Shown here in pieces: positions 7,782 to 64,000 of a stretch of DNA of 64,000 nt. The translations under genes and the position numbers were made by a program. The stretch is from Xiphophorus maculatus. Lineage: Eukaryota > Chordata > Actinopteri > Cyprinodontiformes > Poeciliidae. Positions within the stretch are counted from its first letter, which is position 1. Every line of letters begins with the position of its first letter. The DNA is taken from the NCBI RefSeq assembly GCF_002775205.1, contig NC_036462.1, forward strand, positions 32,219,084-32,283,083, given 5' to 3'. Under the pieces are notes generated by a model, which ran no database searches, was not told the origin of the DNA, and saw only the letters and a list, made by a program, of their open reading frames with translations.

Positions 7782-8086
7782 AAAACAAATACCTGAGTGA
7801 AGTTGGCCCCCCCACCTTCTTCAAATTAGACAAAATTGGTGTCAAACGTTTGTGCTACGTTTGTGCTGGTTTGTGCAGCAAAAATTTTCGTTTGTGCCGC
7901 TATCATTTTACAGATATAAAGAAATGTTTTAGAGGTCATCAAAGGTCTTAATATCTTTAAAATGATAGATGCACAAATGAAAATTGTTGCTGCACAAACC
8001 AGCACAAACGTAGCACAAACGTTTGACACCAATTTTGTCTAATTTGAAGAAGGTGGGGGGGCCAACTTCACTCAGGTAAAACAAAT
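7782..8086. mobile_element. 287-bp foldback MITE with 9-bp target-site duplication (Mutator-like)
   Basis: The element runs from 7791 to 8077. Its two arms (about 7791-7918 and 7950-8077) are near-perfect reverse complements, beginning ACCTGAGTGAAGTTGG and ending in its complement, with only a handful of mismatches and a short loop. It is flanked on both sides by the perfect 9-bp repeat AAAACAAAT (7782-7790 and 8078-8086). A 9-bp duplication with long inverted repeats is characteristic of Mutator-like elements. No coding capacity; non-autonomous. Confidence 0.85.
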
Positions 8087-45330: not shown

Positions 45331-46575
45331 ATTACCTGCTTGTCTCATGACCTTCAGCTCTGTGTGAATGGCTACTAGAGTGTGAGATGTTTGGTTATTT
45401 AGAAAATTATGCACCAAGCTTATTTATAACAAAATGCAGAGATAAAGATAACGCAGTAAATCACTTAAGAGATTAAGTGATTTAATAGCAGCAAATAATT
45501 GTGTTATGAATGTTTTAGACAGGATATGCTCATATCCTTTAAAAGTATTACCTTCATGTACCTAAAATTAAGTCCTTAAAATGTCTATATTTTAATTTAT
45601 TTTAAAAAGTTAGTTGGTCTTTAATGTTTTTCACAAGTCTAAATTTTGTCTTGACAAATTTATTTAATCCCATATACTGTATATATCCTATGTAATTTTT
45701 TTTTCTTGTGGGACTTTTCTGTCAGGCAAAAGTTTGAGTCGCTCTGCTGAAGCATATTAGTGTTGAAGCTACTGCGAACTAGCTATTAACATACCCGTGC
45801 TAGCTAGCTAGCTAGCGTTCATTTCGTCCATCATTAGTAACTGACAATTTGGCTGGTCGAAGTTAATACGTTTCTGTGGAGATGAAGGTCTTCAATTCCA
45901 TTCACAGTGGTCGTAAAAAATGTCTTAAATTTGAGTCGGTGAAACCTGCAGAAACCCTGTTATTAAGATTAAAGGAGGGTAGTAGTTGTGAAGAAGAAAG
46001 AAAAGTTGTTTTCTAGGTTTTACAAGTATGAAAGAAATCTGCTTTTGTAGCATCTATAGAAAGTATTTGACGTTTTGTCATTTTTATTGATTTTACAAAC
46101 CAATCAAGATCAACAAAATGTGACTTTTTTTCCCCCAAATAGACCAAACAAACCCTTAAATGTCAAAGTGAAAACTGATTTTGATAGGTATTTTTCCTTT
46201 CGAACCTATATAAAACAAAGAACCACAGACAACGTATTATGAATTTTATAGCCAAGCTTTTGCAAAAGGAGAAAACACAGAGAACTGCTCCTCTGACCAG
46301 TTCACCATGTGTTCTGCAACTCTGCAGTAGAGCTTGTCTTTTTATTAACACAAAACAAAAGCAAAGGGGGCTGGTGCTGATAAGATTAGGAGCCCCCGAA
46401 ACGAACACAATCAAACACAGTTTTACGACTAAGGAATTTCTACCTAGGGGACAGTCAGGAAAAACAACAAAGGTCGTAAAACTTCTGATACAATCAACTA
46501 GCAACCCAGTTCCTAGGTGTGATAACTAATCAAAGGTCTGAGAAACACATTGTTAACTGTTTCACATGAAGATAA
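45331..46575. other. Intergenic between nucks1 and the tandem element
   Basis: AT-rich and non-coding. It includes a GCTAGCTAGCTAGCTAGC block near 45810. No gene seen. Confidence 0.4.
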
Positions 46576-46725
46576 CACCCGCTTCGGATGTTATCATCCC
46601 ATAGAATGGCGATTATCAGTGGTTATCAGCCCCATTGAATGGCCTCAGTTGGTCCCTGCTCTGCCTGCTAGCAGGCTGTTATCAACCGTTATCAACCATT
46701 CTATCGGTGATAACAGCCGCTTGTC
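46576..46725. promoter_or_regulatory. Palindromic left-end block with repeated TTATCA words
   Basis: About 46582-46630 and 46674-46720 are imperfect inverted repeats sharing TGTTATCA, ATAGAATGG and TTATCAGCC-type words. TTATCA occurs at 46591, 46613, 46623, 46679 and 46689, and its complement at 46708. In the centre is the perfect palindrome GCCTGCTAGCAGGC (46663-46676). This layout resembles subterminal transposase-binding arrays. Repeated at 60383-60532. Confidence 0.5.
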
Positions 46726-47110
46726 GCTAATAGAACCTTTTTTTAACCTTTTTTTAAAAACCTTTATTTATAATTTATCTGCGAATTTGAACAGGATATT
46801 AAGAATTTACTAAAAATACAAAAGCCAAACGTATCCGTCATAAGATTTTAATTAGGTATTGTAATAAACGTTACAGTATTTAAAAACAACTCACTAAAAT
46901 CTAAAACCGGAGGGTTTTTTTTTCTGTTTTGTTTATTTTTGTTCGCTTTTTTAAAGACTTATATTCCCAATATGCCTTTTATTTCTTTGGATTTTTTCCA
47001 ATAATTCACTCAAAATAAATGCCAAAATTTAACATACTTGGTTAATTTTATTGGATCTTTACAAGACGTGTTCTCTCAATACATGCCGTGTTTTTATCTT
47101 CCGGTCGTGC

Positions 47111-47113
<3 letters not shown>

Positions 47114-47181
<68 letters not shown>
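47114..47181. repeat. TA microsatellite in left inverted repeat, copy 1
   Basis: 34 TA units. The equivalent tracts are 60205-60292 (44 units, right inverted repeat) and 60921-60992 (36 units, copy 2). Confidence 0.95.
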
Positions 47182-47183
<2 letters not shown>

Positions 47184-47478
47184 CATACAATGAAATTAAA
47201 AGGTATATTCTAGAGTTATGTAGTTGTCCAACCTCATAGCCTTCCACTAGGTGGCTGTATGTACATCCGAAGTTGCTTGCAATCCATTAATAATGATAAG
47301 AAGAAGTTAGGGTTGGCCCTAATCTTATTTTTAATTAAAAAAATTAAAAATAAAAATACGGATGGATTTGCTCATATGATTATATGAAAATCTGTGTTTG
47401 TACCATATGAAAATGTTTAATATTTGTATTAGTAGTAATAATAATAAATTACGGATTGCACCCGACAAAACATTAGAG

Positions 47479-47539
47479 AAGAAGAAGAAGAAGAAGAAGC
47501 TTACGTCATTCGACGCGACACTTTCCACGGTCGGAGCTG
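47479..47539 (+). promoter_or_regulatory. Promoter-proximal CRE-like site and non-coding exon 1 of rightward gene
   Basis: GAA repeats, then TTACGTCATTCGACGCGAC and a GC-richer stretch, end in a strong donor (GAGCTG/GTGAGT at 47539/47540). The CRE-like octamer and local CpGs in an AT-rich background fit a small core promoter. No start codon lies before the donor, so this would be a 5' UTR exon spliced to 48303. Present again at 61290-61350. Confidence 0.55.
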
Positions 47540-48307
47540 GTGAGTAGCCCCTGAATCTGTCAAATAAAAATGTAGTAAAAAACCTCAAAAGACCGAAAGT
47601 CTACATTTATAAATCTGCTGATGGTAGTTCTATGAGTTAATGTTAGCGAGTATGTGGCACAGCATGTGTTTGTACAGATTTAGACACGTTTTTAACCCTA
47701 TTTGGTAGAAAAAAAAAGCTAGCTAAAGTAGCCTCTTAAAAGCCAGTCACATTCAAATGTAGCTGTCCTTCATACCTTTAATAACAATGTGCTAAAATTT
47801 TGTTTCATATATCTTAAAAAACCGTATACTTTTCAGTATACTAGTTTATATCAGTATATTGATTTAATGTTAGGATTCTATCATACAGTTCATTACATTT
47901 CATCGTTTCCCACAGTGTATTATAAGCCCTGAGGCCATCATTCTTTATTTGTTGCCCCACCAGGCTAAGCATTGTTTATTTATTTAAGTCTTTGTAAAAC
48001 GTTTGCATTTTCTATGACTTTATAGTTATTGTTCAAGTATTAATCTTCCAATCTTTCAATAACACATAATTCTCAAAATGTAATTTCAAATTTCCCGTCA
48101 ACTTTTAACATTTTTTATCTCAAAAACATGACCAGCTACAGGATGACTGACTGTCATAAAACTGAACCACCGGGCTTACCATGTTTTCTGGGGGATACCC
48201 TGCAAGCACAATGCATGCTAATATTTATTTATCACATACCAGAAAAAACAGCTACCTTCTGTTTATTCATATTCATGGTTGTATTTTCTGTCTTTCTTTT
48301 AGGTTCA

Positions 48308-51300
48308 ATGTCAAGAAGAGGTATGTGTAGCATCTCTTAAACATTGAGCTATACAGCAAGATCTAAGAAAATATGTGTTTGTCCTGAATATTATTTTTTT
48401 ATATGCTCTGCTTTTTTTCATTTCATGATAAGAGAGAACACATATCTCGGAGGAAGCGAAGGTCTTCCTCCAGAAAGACTATAAAGAAGGGATGACCAGG
48501 GTGGGATCTCCACTGGTTGGAGCGGCATCCCAGGCCACTGGCTTGCCACCGTTTGTCATTGATGTATGTTTACCAAAGTTCTTTCTAGCCATTCAATTTC
48601 AGAATTCAGAAGGCAAGATGCAATTTCATATAAAAATAAATTCAAACTTCCTGTTTTGTAACAAGACTTTTGTGTTTTTTAGAACTGGATTGGAAACTAT
48701 AGAAGAAAAAAGCCATCTTCTTCTCAACCTAAAAACAAGAAGTTATACACCAAGGACCTGTCTGGTTACAACCTGTTCTGCAGGGATCAGTTAAAGAACA
48801 AGGGTGAGAGAGGATTTACTGTAGCTGTTATGTTGACAAGCATTGTTGTGTGTATAGCTAGCCTGATCATTGCAATTCTCACTTACAGCACAGCCTTTGC
48901 TTTCTCCCCTTGACTCGGATTATCTCCTGCAGACGTTTCATTGTGCCAATCAGTAAACAGAAGGAGAAGTTGTTAAGACTGCCAATTTTCTGTGCTGTTT
49001 TAGAATTGCAGTCCACCTGTAGTTGTAGCAAAGTAAAGGAAGCCATTCAGTCTTTGTTGGCCTTCCAAATATGGAATTAACATGGACAGCTGCCTCGATG
49101 AGCTCAGGGCTTCTGTCTTTGTAGTGACAGATTTTATGTATTTATTTATTTTATTTTATTTATTTATTTATTTGCAGCAAATGCAATTTCAAGTAGAATT
49201 TTTGGCATTGAACTGGCACATGACATACGTCACAGACAAACATTAGCGATTGGGTAAAATTTAACACCTCTAGAGAGGTGTTAAATGAGTGTTAATTGAG
49301 CAATAGTGTCTCAATAGCCATAGCCCAGACCCTCTGGATGCTTCAATGTGTAGTACAATGGGTCATTTTTTTACCAGGCTATTCATAAACTTAATTTTTG
49401 GAAAAAGTATCTTGCCTTAGTTATTTTGTAGTTGTGTAATACTTGCATTGTTCTGTTCGATTTACTTTCTAGAACAGTGGTTTCCAAAGTTGATTCTCAA
49501 GGGCTGGAACCTTCATGCCCTTGAGCCATGATTGAATCTAGGTTAACACACCTGGATTCAATCATGGCTCATTAGAAGGCCAAAGAAGAAAATTGACATG
49601 TTGAGGAGGTTACAACCACCAGACAGAGAAGTAAAACAAGCGGTCCTTATTGGAAGGACTTCATTCAGTATCCCTTTCCATGTAATAGGGGGTTTTTTTT
49701 GGACTTGTTTTAATCATACAATTCCATTTGAAATTGTATATATGGTTTTTATATCAGATTTATATTAGAAATAAATCTCTTTCCCTGTGACAATTCTATT
49801 CAGTGTATCCCAACAGATACCTGCTTAGTTATTTGCAATTATGGTCTATGATGGAATAGTTACCGTAAAAACTTTGCAGAAGCAGATGCCAACTTACAAC
49901 GAGAAATGAAACAAATATACCCTGAAGTATGGGAAATTGTCCTTTCGTTCATTAAAATTAATAAAGTACAATGTTGTGTTGATTAATATTAGCCTTAAGA
50001 AAACCTTTAATCGTTCACACTTCACAATGTGTACTTGAGAAATACTGTTTAAGCCATGTCCTGGATACTTGTACTTCAAGTTTTTATATTGCATTTTATT
50101 GTACTCATATTGAAAATATGTTGGAAAAACAATTTCAATAATTATATTTTATTCTTTGTATCAGACCCCGGGAGGAAAATTAGGACACCAACTGTGGAAG
50201 ACATTTTGAATGCAATGTGTGCAAATGGTAAGTTTGTTGCATGTCTATCCTGAAAGTCCTCCATTACAATGTTGTTATGTATGTTATGTGGGTATATTAC
50301 AAAGCGCACTACACCCTCGGTAACACAATATGTCTGGTCTTCCTTAGGAAAATATGTATTCCGGATGATTTATAGGTTTTCAGATACAAAAAGTGTGGGG
50401 AGTCCAGCTTTGTCTTTAGGTTACTCTGACGTACAACCAGATATGTTTAAGAAATTATAAATATTCCATACTTAGATAAATCACATACGCTTTGGGGTAC
50501 GTGTATTGGGTGATCTCATTAGTGAGGATGTAACACCTTTCAAAATGTTCTATATGGCTATTATGTATAGTTGGATTATAGCTGTACTGTCATGTCAATG
50601 TCTGCAAGATTCATCTCGGCATTGATATTGTGGTTGTACAAAAATGTATGTGTAATATAGTGCATGTGATGCGTTTCTCATGCTAAGACTGTTGAACAAA
50701 TGTAGTTGTGACAATTAGCAAGTTGGCAAGTCTCACAACAGCTGATGTTCCCTCTGAACAATAGTCACATTCACAAATGCGGAATACAGAAATATTTTAT
50801 TGTGAGCTGTTAAAAGTAATAGTTGCAGCTGGTGTCACAGCTGACATAAATCCGAATACTTTGCAGCACTATGTTTGGTTATGTTTTATTGCTTATTCAA
50901 ACCACTTGAGGTGGAGACCATCAGTCACACAACAAAACACAGAAAACTCTCATTCCCTATGTACATCAACCACATTTCCAGCTTTAATTACACATGCAAA
51001 CATTAAAGAAATTATTAAATTAGATGTACCACAAAATACAGTAGTACAGAACTAAAGCATAGATGCTTGTCTTGCATCACTTGTTTAACTTTAAGGAAGT
51101 AGAAGACATCTCAAATTACGGAACTAATGAATGAGCAGGCAATAATTTGTTTTCAACATAAAAAAAAAATTGCAGAAATAATTACATACAAATCACACTA
51201 ACCAATAGCTTAAAGTGGGGGTTCCCAAAATTGTTCCTCAATGGCCAGCACCTTGCATTTCTTAGTTCTGTTCCTGGTTTAATGCAAGGCCTATGAATAG

Positions 51301-51757
51301 GTTGACATGATGAAAAGTTTGTAACTTCCACCGGTGAGAGAACTAAAACATGCAGGATGCCCATCCTCAGGGCCCTAATTTTGATGACAATGAATAAAAA
51401 TAAAAAGTATTAATAATAAAACTGTTTCAATATGTTTAAATATGCTGTTTACACAGAACTGATAGTAACGCTTGAGTTCAACATATTCCCGTATAAAGTA
51501 TAATATGTTAAACGTTACTTGAAGGTATGACCTACCTTGAGATCACATTGCAACTAAACTGTTAATTCTTCTTTAGATGAGCGGAGCGTAACAGAGCCTA
51601 TGGGTTTGACGGAAGTGCTGTCAAGAGAACCGACTACAGATGGTATGCATTTAAATAAATTAAGGCATTATGCTTCTTTTATGTTTTTTAAACTACATTT
51701 GTCAATAAATGACTTATTTTTCTTTATTTAGATACTACGGATGTTTGCAACATCTGT
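48308..51757 (+). CDS. Rightward element gene: homeodomain-like / HMG-like / zinc-finger protein, copy 1
   Basis: Coding exons with matching phases: 48308-48320 (exon from 48303, ATG at 48308), 48433-48563, 48683-48803, 50165-50227, 51577-51642, and a last exon from 51732. The spliced frame gives about 140 residues and stops at 51758. Exons 2-3 give FLQKDYKEGMTRVGS, then ASQATGLPPFVIDNWIGNYR; the end resembles a homeodomain recognition helix (WFxNRR-like). Next, LSGYNLFCRDQLKNK resembles the first helix of an HMG box. The last exon starts DVCNIC and then hits a stop; another frame carries RCNTCEQWSHLACG up to 51890, the second half of a PHD-like finger. So the C-terminus is frameshifted. A poly(A) signal is at 52019-52024. 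KDZ elements are known to carry DNA-binding accessory domains; a role here is inference. Confidence 0.6.
49484..49650. mobile_element. Small MITE with hairpin inside the element
   Basis: CAGTGGTTTCCAAAGTTGAT, then CTCAAGGGCTGGAACCTTC, is the terminus of a common fish hAT-type MITE also seen near 51.21 and 57.92 kb. It contains a 14-bp perfect inverted repeat, GCCATGATTGAATC (49525-49538) and its complement (49555-49568). Repeated at about 63295-63461 in copy 2, so it predates the duplication. Confidence 0.5.
51210..51370. mobile_element. Second copy of the hAT-type MITE
   Basis: GTTCCCAAAATTGTTCCTCA at the left, then GTTCTGTTCCTGGTTTAATG and AACTAAAACATGCAGGATGC toward the right, are shared (in part inverted) with 57916-58109. 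Confidence 0.45.
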
Positions 51758-52040
51758 TGAACAGACGTTCATCACTGAACATCTGTTCAGTGATGAGAAA
51801 AAAAATGCCAAGAAGAAGTGGCGTGAGTGGCGACGTTGCAACACATGTGAGCAGTGGTCACACCTGGCATGTGGATTCAAGAAAAACTGAAAAATTGTCT
51901 GCACTGGGACTGCAAAAAAGACACTTCTAATTTGGTCACAGTTGTGACATCTGACATCTGTCAATGTTAGCATTTCCTGTAGTTTTTTCTTAAACAATTG
52001 ATAAATGTACAATGCATCAATAAAAGCTTTTGTATTGAAA
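51732..52040 (+). pseudogene. Last exon of rightward gene, frameshifted PHD-like finger, and 3' end
   Basis: Entered in phase from exon 51577-51642, this exon reads DTTDVCNIC and stops (51758-51760). The remaining zinc ligands (C-x2-C-x4-H-x2-C in RCNTCEQWSHLAC) are in another frame ending at 51890. Between the two lie a 10-bp direct repeat, AACATCTGTT (51749-51758 and 51778-51787, 29 bp apart), and an 11-bp hairpin (51770-51780 with 51785-51795). The exon ends near the poly(A) signal AATAAA at 52019. Confidence 0.55.
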
Positions 52041-52757
52041 AGATATTCTGTCAAATGTGAGTTCTTTAAATAGTAACAAACATTTGGGTATCAAACGAAC
52101 ACATCAGTGAGCATGTTAGCTGAACTCATTACTATTACACTTGAAAAATGTCCACATGGTAGCACAGATAATACCCTTTAGCAAAAGAATGAGTAAGATC
52201 TTTCCTTTTACATAAACAAATTGACCAGGTTAGAAGACGACACGTTCAGGTAAAGGCACTTTCTCCCTTCGCGAAATCGTTAGGACAGGCATGTTGATAG
52301 GACACAGCTGGAGAAGATCCCAGTGTGGGATGCAGTAGTTCCACAACGTCACGTTACTATTGGTTATCAATGGGTGACACGCCACGTGACCAGTTACACA
52401 CTTTTTGCCGCTTAATGAAAACTATTAATACGATTTGACATTAGGATTTCATTCTGTCTGATAATTTCAATTTATGACTGGAAAATGTGATTTACTTACT
52501 TTAACAGAATTTACTACCCACTCAGACTGGTGAGTTCAATCATGACATCGCCCCGTGTGTCAATGCACCCGCGATGGGGCGCATTCCATTTCAAATATTG
52601 AACGTGTGCCGCAACAATAAGACCCTGTGAGTTGTAAGTGCGAGGCTGTTATAAAGTAATGTATATGGTCATTGAGAGTATAATTGTAGTGTGTAGTGTT
52701 TTAAACTATGATCAGGGCTTCACGTTTTTCTCATATTTAGTTTAGCTGCACTATTAC
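52040..52757. other. Element interior, non-coding
   Basis: Nothing recognisable between the 3' end of the rightward gene and the Tc1 fossil. Confidence 0.4.
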
Positions 52758-53704
52758 AGATAGTATGTGCTAACAAGGAGAAGCTGTATGGGAGAGTGAT
52801 GCAAAAGAAGCCTTTTCAGCAATTACGCCTCAAACAGAGCCGCTTGAGGTCTGCAAAAGCACATTTGGACGAGCCAGCTTCATTTTGGAATAAGGTCCTG
52901 TGGACTGAAGAAACAAAGATTGAGTTGTTTGGTCATAAAAAATGCATTATGCATGGCGGGGGGGGGAAACAGCATTCCAAGAAAAACACTTGCTACCCAC
53001 TGTAAAATTTGGTGGAGGTTCCATCATGCTTTGGGGCTGTGTGGCCAATGCTGGTACTGGGAATCTTGTTAAAGTTGAGGGTCACATGGATTCCACTCAA
53101 TATTAACAGATTCTTGAGAATAATGTTCAAGAAGCTGATACGAAGTTGAAGTTATGCCGGGGATGGATATTTCAGCAAGACAATGATCCAAAACACCGCT
53201 CCAAATCTACTCAGGCATTCATGCAGAGGAACAATTGCAATGTTCTGGATGGCCATCCCAGTCCAGACCTGAATATCACTGAACATCTGGGATGATTTGA
53301 AGCGGACTGTCCATGCTCGGCAACCATCACACTTAACTCAACTGGAATTGTTTTGTAAAGAGGAATGGTCAAAAATACCTTCATACAGGATCAAAGAACT
53401 CATTAAAAGCTACAGGAAGCAACTACAGGCTGTTATTTTTGCAAAAGGCAGATCTAATAAATATTAATGTCACTTTTCTGTTGAGGTGCCCATATTTTTG
53501 CACCTGTCAAATTTTCTGTTAATGCGTACTGCACATTTTCTGTTAGTCCAATAAACCTAATTTATTTCTGTGTCTAATGGAAACAGAAATATTACTGTGT
53601 CCATTAGATATATCAAACTGAAGTAGCTTTTGTAAACACCCAAATATTTATACATAAAAATGATTGAGATTAATAGAGGGGCCCAAACTTTTTCATATGA
53701 CTGT
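52758..53704 (+). pseudogene. Tc1-like transposon fossil with broken transposase
   Basis: Conceptual pieces in shifting frames follow a Tc1 transposase in order: HLDEPASFWNKVLWTEETKI (first catalytic Asp changed to Glu in the usual DETK), GGGSIMLWGC, GWIFQQDNDPKHRSKST (second catalytic Asp region, FQQDND) and PSPDLNITEHLG (third region, where PIENLW is usual). Stops and frameshifts separate them. The 3' end GGCCCAAACTTTTTCATATGACTGTA (about 53680-53704) looks like a Tc1 terminal repeat. The 5' end and N-terminal DNA-binding domain are missing. It sits in the spacer between the two element genes. Confidence 0.8.
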
Positions 53705-54870
53705 ATGTTGCCGCTTTCTCAGGTAGGTTACAAACAGTTATGTCATAATGCCCCAGCCGGCATACCTAGGTGGGCCCCATAAGGGAAAAAAGAGGGCAGA
53801 CAGTATAGGTCCCAAAATGGTTTGTTACCATTTTCCATAGTGGCCCATATATTTTTTTTATGTAAGCAGAGACAAATCACATAAGACTACATGTCAGAAT
53901 TTTCTGACATACAGTTGGTGTTATTCAGACTCTCTGTCTTTATATTCCTGCCTGATCCGTCCCGCTGTGTGCTTACATTTTAATGTAATATCTGGTGTGA
54001 AGGACGTCAATATTCGCGTTGCCCTCCTGAAAAACGCAAACATCAACACTAATGTTAACTGCTCTATAACCTTTTAAACAACCAGGAATGTACATGTCCT
54101 TACAGTTGCAAAACTAAATGCAAATCTAACAGTAAGATAATTCTCACTAGTCTGTGCAGCCATCTGAGTGGTGGAGCAGTGGAAGGAGCGCGTAGACAGC
54201 AAACACTCAACCTGGATGCTGGTGTGAGGGGTCTCCTAAAAAAGTAGTCAATCATCCAACTGCAGATTATATATTATGGTGCTGCTGGCATTCTTACTAA
54301 AACCAGGAAGGTAAATCAAATAAACCAGTTTGTAAGTCCCTACACAGGCTACAAATAGTCCATATTGTAAGTTTTGAAATCTGTCTGAAATATCACAGAA
54401 ACACTGACGTAGCTCTTAATGAATTTTTAATACAGAGTAGTGCCCTTCAAAATAATGTAATTCTTGGATAACAGTCAAATATTTCTCAAATATGAACATC
54501 ACAAAATTTTAGTCCACTACGTTTTAGTTATTTCGTTGTTGTGCCCAAATTTAAAGATATTATGTAAAGCACATTATGCAGCATCTCAAAATTAAGAGTT
54601 AAATTCAAACTGTAAATGAAGTTTAGTCATTAACAATGTCATACTGAACAAGAACATTAATAAATGTGAAAAAGAGTACAAAGCTGTAATGAGTAAAACT
54701 AAAATGCCCTTGATTATATATAGCTTGACTTAAAAAACAGATATGTCTCAACAATATCAAAAGCAATAAACTGAGATGTTAGAACAAAAAGCTTATATGA
54801 AAATCATCAAACAATAAACTTTTTATACTGGAATATGTGCTCTTCACATAGGACAGTAAGTGGCCATAAA
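53705..54870. other. Element interior, non-coding
   Basis: AT-rich spacer downstream of the leftward gene; no coding evidence. Confidence 0.4.
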
Positions 54871-57800
54871 TCATGAAGATGATTCACAATCTATGCTGTT
54901 CTCTCCTTCGTCAACATTGTCGTCATCATCCTCTTCATCCTCTCCATCGTCAATGCTTTCATCATAGTCTATGTAATGTAGATCTGGAGACATAAGTGCT
55001 TGAGAATGAGAGTTAAACTCTGGTAGGTGATGATTTGGAGGAGGGGCACCAACTTCAATAAACCTCTTGAACATGTTCATTGCACTGTACATTTTCTTTT
55101 CTAACATGATAATGTTTTGATGAAGTACAGCTTTTGAACCAGGATCTGCAGTATCATTTATAGCTGAACTTAAATGTCCATGTTGTTGATGAAGGTGAAG
55201 AATGACAGTGTTCATCTCTCTCTTAAGTAGAAGCTTTTCTTCAGCTGCTCTAGTCTTCAAATGCAGGGCTTCTATTGCTCGACTTTTTAGGTTCTTTGGA
55301 ACAACACCATGATCTTCAATCTTTAAAATAAGAGAACAATTGCAAGTGGAACCTTGTTAAAGCGTAGTAGCAACATAAAGTGAATAACAGCATGTAGAAA
55401 GTTGAATAAAACCTTTAGATCAATTCTACTCACTTGTTCATCAAACAATGTGTACAGCTGGGAGGAGGCATCACACAATTCTCGAAATTCTAAATGTGAT
55501 GGAAAGATGCCAGTTTGTGGAGGCCACTGCAGATTATTGTACTCTGTAACAATCTTCTTCAGTTTTCTGTTACAGGCATTCACTTGCTTGGACAGCCTTA
55601 TAGCAACTCCCTGTCCATCTGTAAAGAAAGAAGAAATATAAATACTAGTAAAAATAATACAATCAACACAATATGAAAACATGATACAATAGTCATTTAT
55701 TGAAGTATGTTAAACATAATAAAAGGTCAACATCTGAAATAGTGTTTATCTCAATTTGGATTTTGTGAACACAAGTAGTGGCAGCCAATTCTACACAAGA
55801 TATTCAACATGACACTAAAGTTCGCATAAGGAAATATCAGTTTGTAGGTCAAAATCTATTACTGCCAATAATTGAATGATATTTTAATTGTACTCTTAAA
55901 AAAGTTATCCTCAGAATATAAAGACTGATAGTTCTTACAGTGACTTAATATCTGCAGTAATGCATAAGATCATTGAATGTCCATTAGAAAATGGATGTAT
56001 TACAATACTCACTTATCTGTGCCTATTTACAACGGGCATTAGGTGAAAGACAGGATACACCCAAGAAACATATTCATACACCAAAGATAAATAACCATAC
56101 ACATCAAAAGCACATACCCATGACAAAGGACAAGTTGGAATAAACCAGTCACTTCGTACACTGCATAAAGAAGCTTAAGTACCCAGAGTGAACATATGCA
56201 TGGTGCAGGGATAACATAAAGATTAAATTTAGGTTTACCACATGCTGGGATTCAACCACAAGACCTTTGAGCTTCAATTTTGCTAATGACCATACAGTCA
56301 AGAAAAGAAGTAGCGTTACCATTATATCTTCTTTTCAGGTTGAGAAGAGTGGTCCTCTCCCTTGCTTCATTTTGTGCTCGTCGTATCAGCTGACCTCTAA
56401 GTTCCTGGTCAACATCTCTCAGTGTTCTCTGGAAAATGTCATCCGAAGGGAGCCACCTTCGTTTTACACCATGGTGTCTCTCAATTATTCGAAGATCCCT
56501 GTCCAGCCTAACCACAACAAAAACAAACAAAAAAAACAAAACAACGCACAGTTTCTTTACTTCAGGCGAGAACTGTTGTTCAAATATAGAAGAGTACAAA
56601 TATCTGTCTCTTACTGTTATTCATCTTCAATGAGTGACTCCTGTTTATGTGATCCGGATCTAAAAATGAAAACAAAGACTTTATATTGGCATAGCTTGTA
56701 TAATTAGCTGAGCTTAATACTTTGTCATTAATGTGGCAACATTGTAAGTCTTGTGTAAGTATTTCACAATGTTTATACATTATCTTATGCATGTCTGAGG
56801 TTAGTGCCTAGTAGTGAGGCTGCTTCCCATAGGTGAGGTTAGGAACATGGAACAACCACCAAATCGAGACATTTGACTACATTTTTTTGTATTTACTACA
56901 TGTCTTGAAAACTGCAGACCTTTGCAGCACCCTCATCATTACAGACACACCACCAATCTGCCTACTGATTTGGTATTCAAAAAAGGATCATACCTGAGCT
57001 GGTTGATTTCGGTCAGCTTCATCACATAGTTCCTCTTCCATCTTGGAACAATCTCTGTAGATAAGTCAACAATGTATGTTATTGAACAATCCAATATCTC
57101 TGTGAATAATTGGAAATAATACAAATTACATCAAAATTAGTGACCTTCGTCGGAAGTGATAATGGCGAAACTGGGAAATAGACTCTCCTACTAGGGGTCT
57201 GTACAGCATATTAACCTGTAGTAAAAAGAGTCACAGTACTTATGTTTAATCTATTAATTCCAAAGGTACATAAGTAAAAAAAATAAATAAATAAATACTG
57301 TAAAAAAAAAAATTCTAAATGAGAAAGCAGTAAATAACACATCTAGTCTACTGGAAATGCCATCAGTGACATTAATTTAAAGAAATATTTAATATATTAA
57401 ACAGAATAAAAAAGTTGCAATATTGTTGACATATTTACTAGGACATATCTTTTTCTCTCTACCTCCATAACAGTAAGATTGTTTTTCCACCGTAAGGTGT
57501 TGATGAATCCCTCTACAGAGACCTGGCACTCCAAAGAAAGATGGACAAATAGCTCAAGAAGAGCCATTGAAAAAGCAGCCTGTGGCTTCTCCGGTGAAGC
57601 AGGCCAAAGGCCATACTTCAGAAGAGTGCAGACCTCAGGTTCGCATTTACAAAAAGAAACTGTGCAATTAATGAGATGACCTAAAAAGACAAAGGAAGAA
57701 AAAGGATTCATTCCATTTTTTATCTCACAGAGTCAATAAATACACTGTTTTATAGAACTTGGAATTAAATCAGTCCACAATATGTGTTATAATTATACTT

Positions 57801-57915
57801 TGATTTTATAAGTTGTATAACAAATACATGATATCCATATGAGGAGTTGATCTTTTTATTACTGCTCCCTTTAGGGACCACCGAGCCACATCTATGCTTC
57901 TAAGATGGAATAGGA

Positions 57916-58109
57916 CAGGGGTGACCAAAATTCGTCCTCGAGCACCTTCATTCTGCATGTTTTAGTTCTCTCTGTGGTGGTGGTAACAACCTTTCCAGCA
58001 GGTCAATGTTCTTCTACTGAGCCATCACTGGATCCAAGTGCATTAAACCAGGGACAGAACTAAAACCTGCAAAATGCTGGCCTTCGAGGACCGACTTTGG
58101 GCACCACTG
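57916..58109. mobile_element. hAT-type MITE with inverted ends
   Basis: Left end CAGGGGTGACCAAAATTCGT and right end (inward) CAGTGGTGCCCAAAGTCGGT are inverted with a few mismatches. The flanking 8-mers (GAATAGGA and GTGTAGGA) are similar, with two differences, fitting an old hAT target duplication. Confidence 0.6.
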
Positions 58110-58124
58110 GTGTAGGATGTATTG

Positions 58125-58245
58125 GGATTACACCCTAGGAGCTGGCCCAATTGGCTGGGTAGAGGGAAGTCTGGGAATCCTTAATTATGCTGTTACTTGG
58201 GTGACCTGACCCCAGATAAGCAGAAGGCAATGGATGGATGATATA
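58125..58245 (+). mobile_element. LINE 3' tail fragment
   Basis: ATTGGCTGGGTAGAGGGAAGTCTGGG, then GACCTGACCCCAGATAAGC and AATGGATGGATG match the 3' end of a common fish non-LTR element with a GGAT-repeat tail. Confidence 0.5.
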
Positions 58246-58517
58246 TCCCTTCTTTAAACATGTACAAACCAACGCAGACTTGCCACTTTAACTGTGTTTA
58301 ACTTAACATGTGTTGTCTTTAACTGAGCTTCCCCTCCAATCTATGTATTTATGTAGTTTTCTATATTTGTGTATCCAAGTATAAATAAATAACAACAAAG
58401 AAGAATAAAAAGTTATTCCACAATAAAAAGTCACATAAACATATATTCACGTGGGACAAGATTAATAATCATAAAGTGAAAACATAAATTTTACTAAATA
58501 AGATTTAGAATTTTGTA

Positions 58518-58519
<2 letters not shown>

Positions 58520-58577
<58 letters not shown>

Positions 58578-58822
58578 TGCTCAAAAAAATAAAGGGAACA
58601 CTTAAACAACACAATATAACTCCAAGTAAATCAAACTTCTGTGAAATCAAACTGTCCACTTAGGAAGCAACACTGATTGACTATCAATTCCACCTGCTGT
58701 TGTGCAAATGGAACTTTGTACAGAACAAAGTATTCAATGAGAATATTTCTTTCATTCAGATCTAGGATGTGTTATTTGAGTGTTCCCTTTATTTTTTTGA
58801 GCAGTATATATATATATATATA
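58520..58822. mobile_element. 230-bp mariner-type MITE inserted in a TA microsatellite
   Basis: The element at 58575-58804 has inverted ends CACTGCTCAAAAAAATAAAGGGAACACT and its complement, a well-known fish Tc1/mariner terminus. It is flanked by TA on both sides: a TA tract at 58521-58574 and another at 58805-58822, so the element split one microsatellite. Between the ends there is no coding sequence. It lies in the intron between transposase exons 57680 and 58881. Confidence 0.8.
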
Positions 58823-59584
58823 TACATACACATATACACAAAATTAATTAATTAAAAAATTACATAGTGTAAAAACATACCTGTGTTGACAAAAGTCTTT
58901 ACATCTCTGGAGTAAACAACATGGGTGCTGTGATCCCCACTTAAATGCAACACCAACTGCTGGAAAGCAGCCTCATAGCAGGTTTTCTAAAGAGACACAA
59001 AAAAGGACAGAGAAAAACCGAATTTTATGCAATTAAGAACTCATTCTCATTCTATACATATCAATTACAATATTTATTAGTACATTCAACAAAAATGAAC
59101 TTACATTCCACTTTTCAGGGAGGTGCAAAGAATTTATGGGTACTGTGTAGACACAATCCTTGCAAAAAACACTGCTTCTGCTGCATTCCAGACAGCGGTA
59201 TACTCCAGGTTTCTTGCACACAGAGCACATGTCAGAGAAAGGAGCGGAGGACTTATAGGACTCTTCCAAGACCTGATCTTTTAGTGTATCCCATAGGCTC
59301 AGCTCCTTCCTTTTTGCCCTGGTATACGCGGTCCCTTCTTCCTTTGAGTTTTCAGTACAAATATCATTTGATGAGGGAAAAACAGTGTTGGTGTCAGATG
59401 AGCCTGCATGTGAGGGAATGTAGGAATATTTCGCCCGAGCACCGATGGTTTTCCGAGTTACTTTTATTTTTTTGGTCTTACAACGGACACTGCTCTTATA
59501 TTTAGGCATGGTTCTAAAGTGGGAGAGAACAGAAAGAAGACAGAAATACTGTAACACCGAGAAGCATAAAATAATAATAAAAAA

Positions 59585-60202
59585 AACAAAATTTTAGCAC
59601 ATTGTTATTAAAGGTATGAAGGACAGCTACATTTGAATGTGACTGGCTTTTAAGAGGCTACTTTAGCTAGCTTTTTTTTTCTACCAAATAGGGTTAAAAA
59701 CGTGTCTAAATCTGTACAAACACATGCTGTGCCACATACTCGCTAACATTAACTCATAGAACTACCATCAGCAGATTTATAAATGTAGACTTTCGGTCTT
59801 TTGAGGTTTTTTACTACATTTTTATTTGACAGATTCAGGGGCTACTCACCAGCTCCGACCGTGGAAAGTGTCGCGTCGAATGACGTAAGCTTCTTCTTCT
59901 TCTTCTTCTCTAATGTTTTGTCGGGTGCAATCCGTAATTTATTATTATTACTACTAATACAAATATTAAACATTTTCATATGGTACAAACACAGATTTTC
60001 ATATAATCATATGAGCAAATCCATCCGTATTTTTATTTTTAATTTTTTAAATTAAAAATAAGATTAGGGCCAACCCTAACTTCTTCTTATCATTATTAAT
60101 GGATTGCAAGCAACTTCGGATGTACATACAGCCACCTAGTGGAAGGCTATGAGGTTGGACAACTACATAACTCTAGAATATACCTTTTAATTTCATTGTA
60201 TG

Positions 60203-60295
<93 letters not shown>

Positions 60296-60382
60296 GCACG
60301 ACCGGAAGATAAAAACACGGCATGTATTGAGAGAACACGTCTTGTAAAGATCCAATAAAATTAACCAAGTATGTTAAATTTT
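59585..60382 (-). repeat. Right terminal inverted repeat, copy 1
   Basis: Reverse complement of 47024-47805, ending GTATGTTAAATTTT at 60382, where copy 2 begins. Contains a TA microsatellite (60205-60292), the CRE-like site (59881-59888) and the mirrored splice donor (exon end 59850). Confidence 0.9.
59850..59910 (-). promoter_or_regulatory. Mirror promoter and non-coding exon 1 of leftward transposase gene
   Basis: The same CRE-like site and donor as at 47501-47539, in reverse. It would splice to the acceptor ACTTTAG just before 59513, four bases upstream of the transposase start codon at 59509. Confidence 0.55.
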
Positions 60383-60830
60383 CACCCGCTTCGGATGTTA
60401 TCATCCCATAGAATGGCGATTATCAGTGGTTATCAGCCCCATTGAATGGCCTCAGTTGGTCCCTGCTCTGCCTGCTAGCAGGCTGTTATCAACCGTTATC
60501 AACCATTCTATCGGTGATAACAGCCGCTTGTCGCTAATAGAACCTTTTTTTAACCTTTTTTTAAAAACCTTTATTTATAATTTATCTGCGAATTTGAACA
60601 GGATATTAAGAATTTACTAAAAATACAAAAGCCAAACGTATCCGTCATAAGATTTTAATTAGGTATTGTAATAAACGTTACAGTATTTAAAAACAACTCA
60701 CTAAAATCTAAAACCGGAGGGTTTTTTTTTCTGTTTTGTTTATTTTTGTTCGCTTTTTTAAAGACTTATATTCCCAATATGCCTTTTATTTCTTTGGATT
60801 TTTTCCAATAATTCACTCAAAATAAATGCC

Positions 60831-60917
60831 AAAATTTAACATACTTGGTTAATTTTATTGGATCTTTACAAGACGTGTTCTCTCAATACATGCCGTGTTT
60901 TTATCTTCCGGTCGTGC

Positions 60918-60994
<77 letters not shown>

Positions 60995-61616
60995 CATACA
61001 ATGAAATTAAAAGGTATATTCTAGAGTTATGTAGTTGTCCAACCTCATAGCCTTCCACTAGGTGGCTGTATGTACATCCGAAGTTGCTTGCAATCCATTA
61101 ATAATGATAAGAAGAAGTTAGGGTTGGCCCTAATCTTATTTTTAATTAAAAAAATTAAAAATAAAAATACGGATGGATTTGCTCATATGATTATATGAAA
61201 ATCTGTGTTTGTACCATATGAAAATGTTTAATATTTGTATTAGTAGTAATAATAATAAATTACGGATTGCACCCGACAAAACATTAGAGAAGAAGAAGAA
61301 GAAGAAGAAGCTTACGTCATTCGACGCGACACTTTCCACGGTCGGAGCTGGTGAGTAGCCCCTGAATCTGTCAAATAAAAATGTAGTAAAAAACCTCAAA
61401 AGACCGAAAGTCTACATTTATAAATCTGCTGATGGTAGTTCTATGAGTTAATGTTAGCGAGTATGTGGCACAGCATGTGTTTGTACAGATTTAGACACGT
61501 TTTTAACCCTATTTGGTAGAAAAAAAAAGCTAGCTAAAGTAGCCTCTTAAAAGCCAGTCACATTCAAATGTAGCTGTCCTTCATACCTTTAATAACAATG
61601 TGCTAAAATTTTGTTT
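60831..61616 (+). repeat. Left terminal inverted repeat, copy 2
   Basis: Same sequence as 47024-47805, with a TA tract of about 72 bp (60921-60992). Confidence 0.9.
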
Positions 61617-62118
61617 CATATATCTTAAAAAACCGTATACTTTTCAGTATACTAGTTTATATCAGTATATTGATTTAATGTTAGGATTCTATCATACAGT
61701 TCATTACATTTCATCGTTTCCCACAGTGTATTATAAGCCCTGAGGCCATCATTCTTTATTTGTTGCCCCACCAGGCTAAGCATTGTTTATTTATTTAAGT
61801 CTTTGTAAAACGTTTGCATTTTCTATGACTTTATAGTTATTGTTCAAGTATTAATCTTCCAATCTTTCAATAACACATAATTCTCAAAATGTAATTTCAA
61901 ATTTCCCGTCAACTTTTAACATTTTTTATCTCAAAAACATGACCAGCTACAGGATGACTGACTGTCATAAAACTGAACCACCGGGCTTACCATGTTTTCT
62001 GGGGGATACCCTGCAAGCACAATGCATGCTAATATTTATTTATCACATACCAGAAAAAACAGCTACCTTCTGTTTATTCATATTCATGGTTGTATTTTCT
62101 GTCTTTCTTTTAGGTTCA

Positions 62119-64000
62119 ATGTCAAGAAGAGGTATGTGTAGCATCTCTTAAACATTGAGCTATACAGCAAGATCTAAGAAAATATGTGTTTGTCCTGAAT
62201 ATTATTTTTTTATATGCTCTGCTTTTTTTCATTTCATGATAAGAGAGAACACATATCTCGGAGGAAGCGAAGGTCTTCCTCCAGAAAGACTATAAAGAAG
62301 GGATGACCAGGGTGGGATCTCCACTGGTTGGAGCGGCATCCCAGGCCACTGGCTTGCCACCGTTTGTCATTGATGTATGTTTACCAAAGTTCTTTCTAGC
62401 CATTCAATTTCAGAATTCAGAAGGCAAGATGCAATTTCATATAAAAATAAATTCAAACTTCCTGTTTTGTAACAAGACTTTTGTGTTTTTTAGAACTGGA
62501 TTGGAAACTATAGAAGAAAAAAGCCATCTTCTTCTCAACCTAAAAACAAGAAGTTATACACCAAGGACCTGTCTGGTTACAACCTGTTCTGCAGGGATCA
62601 GTTAAAGAACAAGGGTGAGAGAGGATTTACTGTAGCTGTTATGTTGACAAGCATTGTTGTGTGTATAGCTAGCCTGATCATTGCAATTCTCACTTACAGC
62701 ACAGCCTTTGCTTTCTCCCCTTGACTCGGATTATCTCCTGCAGACGTTTCATTGTGCCAATCAGTAAACAGAAGGAGAAGTTGTTAAGACTGCCAATTTT
62801 CTGTGCTGTTTTAGAATTGCAGTCCACCTGTAGTTGTAGCAAAGTAAAGGAAGCCATTCAGTCTTTGTTGGCCTTCCAAATATGGAATTAACATGGACAG
62901 CTGCCTCGATGAGCTCAGGGCTTCTGTCTTTGTAGTGACAGATTTTATGTATTTATTTATTTTATTTTATTTATTTATTTATTTGCAGCAAATGCAATTT
63001 CAAGTAGAATTTTTGGCATTGAACTGGCACATGACATACGTCACAGACAAACATTAGCGATTGGGTAAAATTTAACACCTCTAGAGAGGTGTTAAATGAG
63101 TGTTAATTGAGCAATAGTGTCTCAATAGCCATAGCCCAGACCCTCTGGATGCTTCAATGTGTAGTACAATGGGTCATTTTTTTACCAGGCTATTCATAAA
63201 CTTAATTTTTGGAAAAAGTATCTTGCCTTAGTTATTTTGTAGTTGTGTAATACTTGCATTGTTCTGTTCGATTTACTTTCTAGAACAGTGGTTTCCAAAG
63301 TTGATTCTCAAGGGCTGGAACCTTCATGCCCTTGAGCCATGATTGAATCTAGGTTAACACACCTGGATTCAATCATGGCTCATTAGAAGGCCAAAGAAGA
63401 AAATTGACATGTTGAGGAGGTTACAACCACCAGACAGAGAAGTAAAACAAGCGGTCCTTATTGGAAGGACTTCATTCAGTATCCCTTTCCATGTAATAGG
63501 GGGTTTTTTTTGGACTTGTTTTAATCATACAATTCCATTTGAAATTGTATATATGGTTTTTATATCAGATTTATATTAGAAATAAATCTCTTTCCCTGTG
63601 ACAATTCTATTCAGTGTATCCCAACAGATACCTGCTTAGTTATTTGCAATTATGGTCTATGATGGAATAGTTACCGTAAAAACTTTGCAGAAGCAGATGC
63701 CAACTTACAACGAGAAATGAAACAAATATACCCTGAAGTATGGGAAATTGTCCTTTCGTTCATTAAAATTAATAAAGTACAATGTTGTGTTGATTAATAT
63801 TAGCCTTAAGAAAACCTTTAATCGTTCACACTTCACAATGTGTACTTGAGAAATACTGTTTAAGCCATGTCCTGGATACTTGTACTTCAAGTTTTTATAT
63901 TGCATTTTATTGTACTCATATTGAAAATATGTTGGAAAAACAATTTCAATAATTATATTTTATTCTTTGTATCAGACCCCGGGAGGAAAATTAGGACACC
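62119..64000 (+). CDS. Rightward element gene, copy 2, partial (runs off window)
   Basis: Exons at 62119-62131 (exon from 62114), 62244-62374, 62494-62614 and 63976 to the window end are identical to copy 1 at an offset of 13,811. The last two exons lie beyond the window, so it is not known whether this copy has the intact zinc-finger exon. Confidence 0.6.

Follow-up and report, generated by a model that had tools for sequence, protein, structure and literature searches.

The window analysed here is a 64,000-nt stretch of Xiphophorus maculatus DNA (C20:32219084-32283083), whose coordinates are used throughout, and its right-hand part is occupied by two head-to-tail copies of a large DNA transposon of the KDZ type. 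DNA of C20 to the right of the window was added for the second copy, and relatives of the element were searched for in the genome (704 Mb), with loci named by contig (C1, C7, C20 and so on) or by an L number. The parts of the composite and of its insertion site are the following (TIR, terminal inverted repeat; LTR, long terminal repeat).

46182..46575, no strand: left part of the target repeat, an LTR-like dispersed repeat, of which about 60 bp more follow the composite from L010:661 (L010:661-720).
46569..46575 on the left and L010:654-660 (C20:32293737-32293743) on the right, beyond copy 2, no strand: target duplication AAGATAA.
46576..60382, plus strand: copy 1, 13,807 bp, a KDZ-type element without the outer 448 bp of its right TIR.
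46576..47805, plus strand: left TIR of copy 1; positions 47024-47805 are an inverted match to 59584-60382, and the whole matches the right end of copy 2 in inverted orientation.
47114..47181, no strand: tract of TA repeats, 68 bp in copy 1 and 72 bp in copy 2, within the left TIR.
59584..60382, minus strand: right TIR of copy 1, truncated, stopping at TIR position 449.
60373..60392, no strand: junction, at which ...GTATGTTAAATTTT is joined to CACCCGCTTCGG...
60383..64000 in the window and on to C20:32293736 (window-equivalent 74653), plus strand: copy 2, complete, 14,271 bp.

The tandem repeat is real in the assembly. A self-alignment of the window bore out the head-to-tail restart at 60383 with a period of 13,807 bp (46576-60382) that a preliminary description of this DNA had reported, together with the junction at 60382/60383: the 3,618 bp of 60383-64000 align with 46576-50189 with no mismatch and a single gap of 4 bp in a (TA)n tract. 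The same description had found the copies to differ in the length of one TA tract, which holds within the window but not over the full copies, where two of three tracts are unequal (68/72, 88/100 and 54/54 bp in copy 1/copy 2). Aligned over 13,807 bases, the copies are free of substitutions, and they differ only in these tract lengths and in the 448 bp absent from copy 1.

The element begins with CACCCGCTTCGG and ends with CCGAAGCGGGTG, its termini being CAC..GTG, and the TIRs measure roughly 1.2-1.3 kb (about 1.25 kb) in all seven complete elements compared. What had been described as a 448-bp left block is indeed present at the start of each copy, but it is really the outer third of this TIR and recurs inverted at the right end of copy 2. 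Similarly, a right inverted repeat does end at the junction, as had been stated, but it is the truncated right TIR of copy 1. Copy 1 is thus a truncated element and copy 2 a complete one. The composite closes with a true right terminus and a target duplication outside the window, and extension of the sequence past 64 kb, which had been proposed earlier, located both: copy 2 ends at C20:32293736 and is followed by the 7-bp target duplication. Copy 1 breaks off 448 bp short of its right terminus and is followed immediately by copy 2, starting from the outermost base of the left terminus. The junction has no shared base: in a normal right TIR the next letters would be GGCATT, and ahead of the left terminus of copy 1 stands host DNA, GATAA. 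A natural boundary at TIR position 448 was rejected, since in 7/7 complete elements both TIRs run on past this point. A 201-base query across the junction gave a full-length match only at its own place among the best 40 of 62 matches in the genome, and the 20-base junction string was found inside none of the eight element copies. The repeat unit contains no host DNA.

AAGATAA precedes copy 1 and follows copy 2, so that it encloses the whole 28-kb composite and neither copy singly. When 45900-46575 was used as a query, nearly all of the best 40 of 740 matches (self included) covered about 46182-46575 at 97-100 % identity, and the copy number of this LTR-like repeat exceeds the 40 scored. Among the matches listed, at least five same-strand pairs lie 7.4-7.5 kb apart. 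The sequences to the left and right of the composite belong together as the two parts of a single repeat copy. In 5/5 fetched copies the repeat runs uninterrupted through an empty site with a single AAGATAA, and therefore the 28-kb composite occupies one insertion site. Direct repeats of 7 bp lie directly outside the ends of all seven full-length insertions (C1, C3 twice, C4, C10, C19 and C20).

With a left and a right end present and a target duplication around it, the composite could be mobile as a whole, and it might thus have been inserted already formed, or have come from elsewhere as a concatemer or circle. We regard this as very unlikely. No other full-length match to the junction appeared among the best 40 of 62, although a donor may have been lost by excision, and the junction is not the terminus-to-terminus join that a simple circle would give. 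The insertion of a simple circular form, one of the origins proposed in the preliminary description, does not agree with a copy 1 that lacks 448 bp at a junction of this kind.

The same description had also allowed for a duplication made in assembly. An artefact of the assembly or library, whether a chimeric read or a single element whose two haplotype versions were assembled one after the other, would account for the lack of any substitution between the copies in 13,807 bases and for a junction found once among the best 40 of 62 matches. However, the junction falls exactly at a transposon terminus and lacks the sequence overlap that a false join would need. The unequal TA tracts (68/72 and 88/100) indicate that two different strings were assembled, although two haplotype versions could differ likewise, and a single target duplication surrounds the composite, both flanks of which are parts of one copy of the target repeat. 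An artefact is therefore unlikely in our judgement, though it keeps enough weight to be taken seriously.

The comparison set comprised eight element copies at seven loci, that is, the two at C20 and six other full-length elements. The C20 copies differ from the six others by 9 to 59 substitutions, and at five positions both carry a base that occurs in none of the six. Given 0 substitutions and five private shared bases, copy 2 therefore derives from copy 1, or both derive from one very recent parent. Apart from the 448 bp, the alignment of the eight copies has no gap longer than 100 bp. The family is a recently active one. The earlier view of a large, recent, head-to-tail DNA transposon is upheld by the inverted termini, the 7-bp duplications, the absence of substitutions and a KDZ relative.

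On C1, positions 11258000-11340000 (L029, L024, L025, L030, L031, L015, L016, L032 and L033) hold a segmental duplication with a period of about 33 kb and pieces that are 95.7-99.6 % identical. An element of the family lies in it, with an identical left flank each time, and is incomplete in the upstream copy.

Homology-driven duplication, such as unequal crossing-over, does occur in this genome, as the 33-kb duplication with its family element on C1 attests. At C20, however, the junction shows no direct homology and is exact to the terminus, the TIRs are mutually inverted and the unit includes no host DNA, so that we find such an origin barely plausible; a segmental duplication like that on C1 was rejected for the C20 composite. 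Of the recent tandem duplication suggested earlier, a duplication by way of transposase fits best, whereas simple unequal crossing-over does not fit, for want of junction homology and given the mutual inversion of the TIRs.

The composite probably arose, in our opinion, through a transposase-mediated self-insertion of the element into its right TIR on the sister chromatid, in one or two steps. This mechanism has as its observed base one 7-bp duplication, a complete copy 2, a copy 1 ending at position 449 of the right TIR and a junction at the left terminus. Transposase supplied by another element would act on one sister chromatid, taking the left end of the copy there, and would insert that end into the same element's right TIR on the other chromatid. 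In the one-step route, the left end of one sister would pair with the right end of the other as hybrid ends (alternative transposition), giving the tandem with the loss of a 448-bp circle. In the two-step route, the whole copy would insert in the same orientation at that point of the right TIR, after which the direct repeat so formed (448 bp, the 7-bp target copy and again 448 bp) would collapse to one. The two routes yield the same observed sequence. Precedents for parts of both come from Ac, P, Sleeping Beauty and piggyBac (PMC3744419, PMC3952818). The reciprocal product of alternative transposition, whether the 448-bp circle or the other chromatid, would be lost. Two copies of one element are found here joined exactly at a terminus, which is what characterises a product of sister-chromatid alternative transposition, and a join made by transposase is favoured because the junction is exact to the terminus.

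Several points weigh against self-insertion. The target duplication AAATTTT, which would be expected beside copy 2, has no second copy; since both routes remove it, strand transfer at the junction is something that we infer rather than observe. The junction was found once among the best 40 of 62 matches, and the tandem is known here from the assembly sequence. Our literature search found no tandem KDZ elements, nor any KDZ excision footprints, which does not show that none exist; within the parts of the KDZ literature that it covered, these transposons are described by sequence and insertion, and nothing was found there about the way in which DNA is cut, excised or rearranged by their transposase.

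Excision was approached through remnants of the family. A search for exact 15-base termini, to which ends with fewer than 15 matching bases are not visible, returned 34: the seven full-length loci account for 15 of them, and the remaining 19 are spread over 18 further loci. Stubs were counted in 16 remnants, namely 14 of these 18 loci together with L048 and L049, whose ends are mismatched; left out were C1:11270764 (a segmental duplicate), C30, C7, C1:6877932 (a long remnant) and the mismatched L046, L051 and L052. At six loci a short stub lies between two exact copies of a 7-bp repeat, with the following lengths on its two sides.

L034, 17 + 17 bp; L042, 22 + 0 bp; L056, 113 + 4 bp.
L058, 42 + 11 bp; L060, 48 + 5 bp; L062, 47 + 9 bp.

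The stub of L034 (C16:15851012-15851045) is a perfect 34-bp palindrome of two 17-bp termini. Near cases with a partial or ambiguous repeat are L059, L063 and L045, and one-sided stubs, which could be plain truncations, occur at L040, L047, L050, L061, C2:18126844, L048 and L049. The six two-sided stubs look as if the element had been excised and the break then closed by end joining, or by gap repair that was incomplete, and their position between 7-bp repeats would indicate excision of the cut-and-paste type.

Gap repair offers a further route to the tandem: after excision, both broken ends would copy the sister element almost fully, and the new tracts would be end-joined. It accounts for the identity of the copies and for the single target duplication, and unequal stubs elsewhere (113 + 4, 42 + 11, 48 + 5 and 47 + 9 bp) suggest end joining or incomplete copying in this family. 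However, the end of one tract must coincide with the left terminus, as is to be expected only of a template that was itself cut at that point, and we think this origin quite improbable.

The 16 remnants fall into stub lengths of 17-22 nt (6), 39-50 nt (6) and 91-121 nt (4). For L034 the strict match gives 17-18, where the script rule gave 24 by running into the palindrome, and for L061 BLAST gives 108, where the script rule gave 53 by stopping at a local difference; C2 has 121. In a study on the P element, its transposase is described as making a staggered cut of 17 nt (PMC7776569). By analogy, a KDZ transposase might both pair ends from sister chromatids, building head-to-tail arrays, and cut inside the termini so as to leave stubs, a doubtful proposal in its combined form. 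Stubs of about 17 bp to left and right occur in just one of the six two-sided footprints, L034, and stub groups above 22 nt are not predicted by such a cut.

Taken with the self-insertion favoured above, the family shows within one genome an insertion rule (7 bp), excision stubs and what would be a self-insertion product. If confirmed, the tandem shows a way in which an element of the cut-and-paste type can begin a tandem array with no duplication of host DNA.

Coding features in the right half of copy 1 are as follows.

56255..56620, minus strand: downstream open frame, also present in the C7 relative (L028) at 98.4 % identity over 63 aa.
57123..57152, minus strand: deletion join, where a 2.7-kb internal block with the KDZ catalytic core is missing.
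57400..57732, minus strand: CxC exon, with the CxC1/CxC2/CxC3 cysteine cluster of KDZ transposases.
59036..59593, minus strand: open frame with a cysteine cluster (CSVCKKPGVYRCLEC...), likely the N-terminal exon of the KDZ gene.

The CxC exon matches the Pfam families PF18802 (E 2.1e-14), PF18803 (E 5.6e-12) and PF18804 (E 4.4e-7), all of which pass the cut-offs. For the frame at 59036..59593, which is in two pieces in the C7 relative, all Pfam matches to zinc domains are sub-threshold, and the frame at 56255..56620 has no Pfam match. The KDZ catalytic domain PF18758 gave no match in the three minus-strand frames of 53500-59593. Searched for in the genome, this domain gave four matches, none of them in the seven full-length loci; two that pass the cut-off are in the C7 relative (C7:27075231 and 27076629), while 0 of 14 control genomes had any. 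These catalytic exons sit in L028:6051-8761 (C7:27075050-27077760), the block missing from the window copies. The C7 relative has a left end with the same TIR (94 %) and adjoining shared stretches of 739 to 1,409 bp at 96.8-98.9 %; its first exon is split, and the 15-base termini search found no exact right end for it. As judged from these domains, the family belongs to the KDZ supergroup, the catalytic domain being present in the C7 relative and not found in the window copies.

The window copies do not hold a complete transposase gene, the catalytic block being absent, and the same 30-base join is present in 8/8 element copies at the seven loci. Because the block is absent here and present in the C7 relative, and because the join is common to all eight copies, the window family looks like an internally deleted, non-autonomous derivative.

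Nested in the element at 52712..53467 (plus strand) are what we take by eye to be Tc1-like transposase remnants; Pfam HTH_Tnp_Tc3_2 matches there with E 0.034, under the cut-off. The seven loci seem to share these remnants, with no gap above 100 bp there. In the read-through frames (minus strand, 53500-59593 and 47700-53600; plus strand, 47700-54800) only the CxC matches exceed the Pfam cut-offs. Virus-like cargo of the Polinton or Teratorn type was dropped as a candidate, no such domain being found in the frames, although introns split the frames and its absence is not thereby proven. Rfam gave no match at gathering score in the window. Far from the composite, positions 7790-8078 form a large imperfect palindrome, 289 bp that match their own reverse complement at 91 % identity.

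The CxC1/2/3 exon of the window copies and the catalytic domain of the relative with the same TIR liken the element to the KDZ supergroup (Kyakuja, Dileera and Zisupton). According to one account, Kyakuja has 7-bp target duplications and CA..TG ends without TIRs, and Zisupton and Dileera have 8-bp duplications (PMC12730594). The element resembles Kyakuja in its 7-bp duplication (7/7) and in its CAC..GTG ends, which fit CA..TG, but differs from it in having TIRs of about 1.2-1.3 kb (7/7), and it differs from Zisupton and Dileera in the length of the duplication, which is 7 bp in 7/7 insertions here. KDZ1-3 of Cryptococcus are about 9-11 kb long with TIRs of 139-241 bp, and their new insertions have duplications of 8 bp (KDZ1) or 4-8 bp (KDZ2 and KDZ3) (PMC12810828); at about 1.25 kb the TIRs here are unlike theirs, as is a copy of 14,271 bp. 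Because long TIRs are combined with a 7-bp duplication, the element is placed, on its sequence, in KDZ without a subgroup.

Galileo of Drosophila likewise has long TIRs and mostly 7-bp target duplications (PMC4168063). It belongs, however, to another transposase superfamily, that of P, and the tandem repeats found in it lie within the TIRs and have units of about 140 bp. As regards self-insertion, Sleeping Beauty and piggyBac are described as inserting into their own DNA with a frequency that rises with element size (PMC3952818), so that long elements are more exposed. The likeness to the present case lies in a transposon entering its own DNA; the difference is that in those systems the excised element disrupts itself, whereas here one complete element is kept. 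In the form of the product there is a resemblance to alternative transposition of maize Ac between sister chromatids and to hybrid element insertion of P (PMC3744419). In Ac/Ds (sister-chromatid and reversed-ends transposition) and in P, ends of different copies, on sister chromatids, enter one reaction and produce tandem duplications with junctions at transposon ends. In those systems it is the host flanks that are duplicated, whereas at C20 only the element is, the target being its own TIR.

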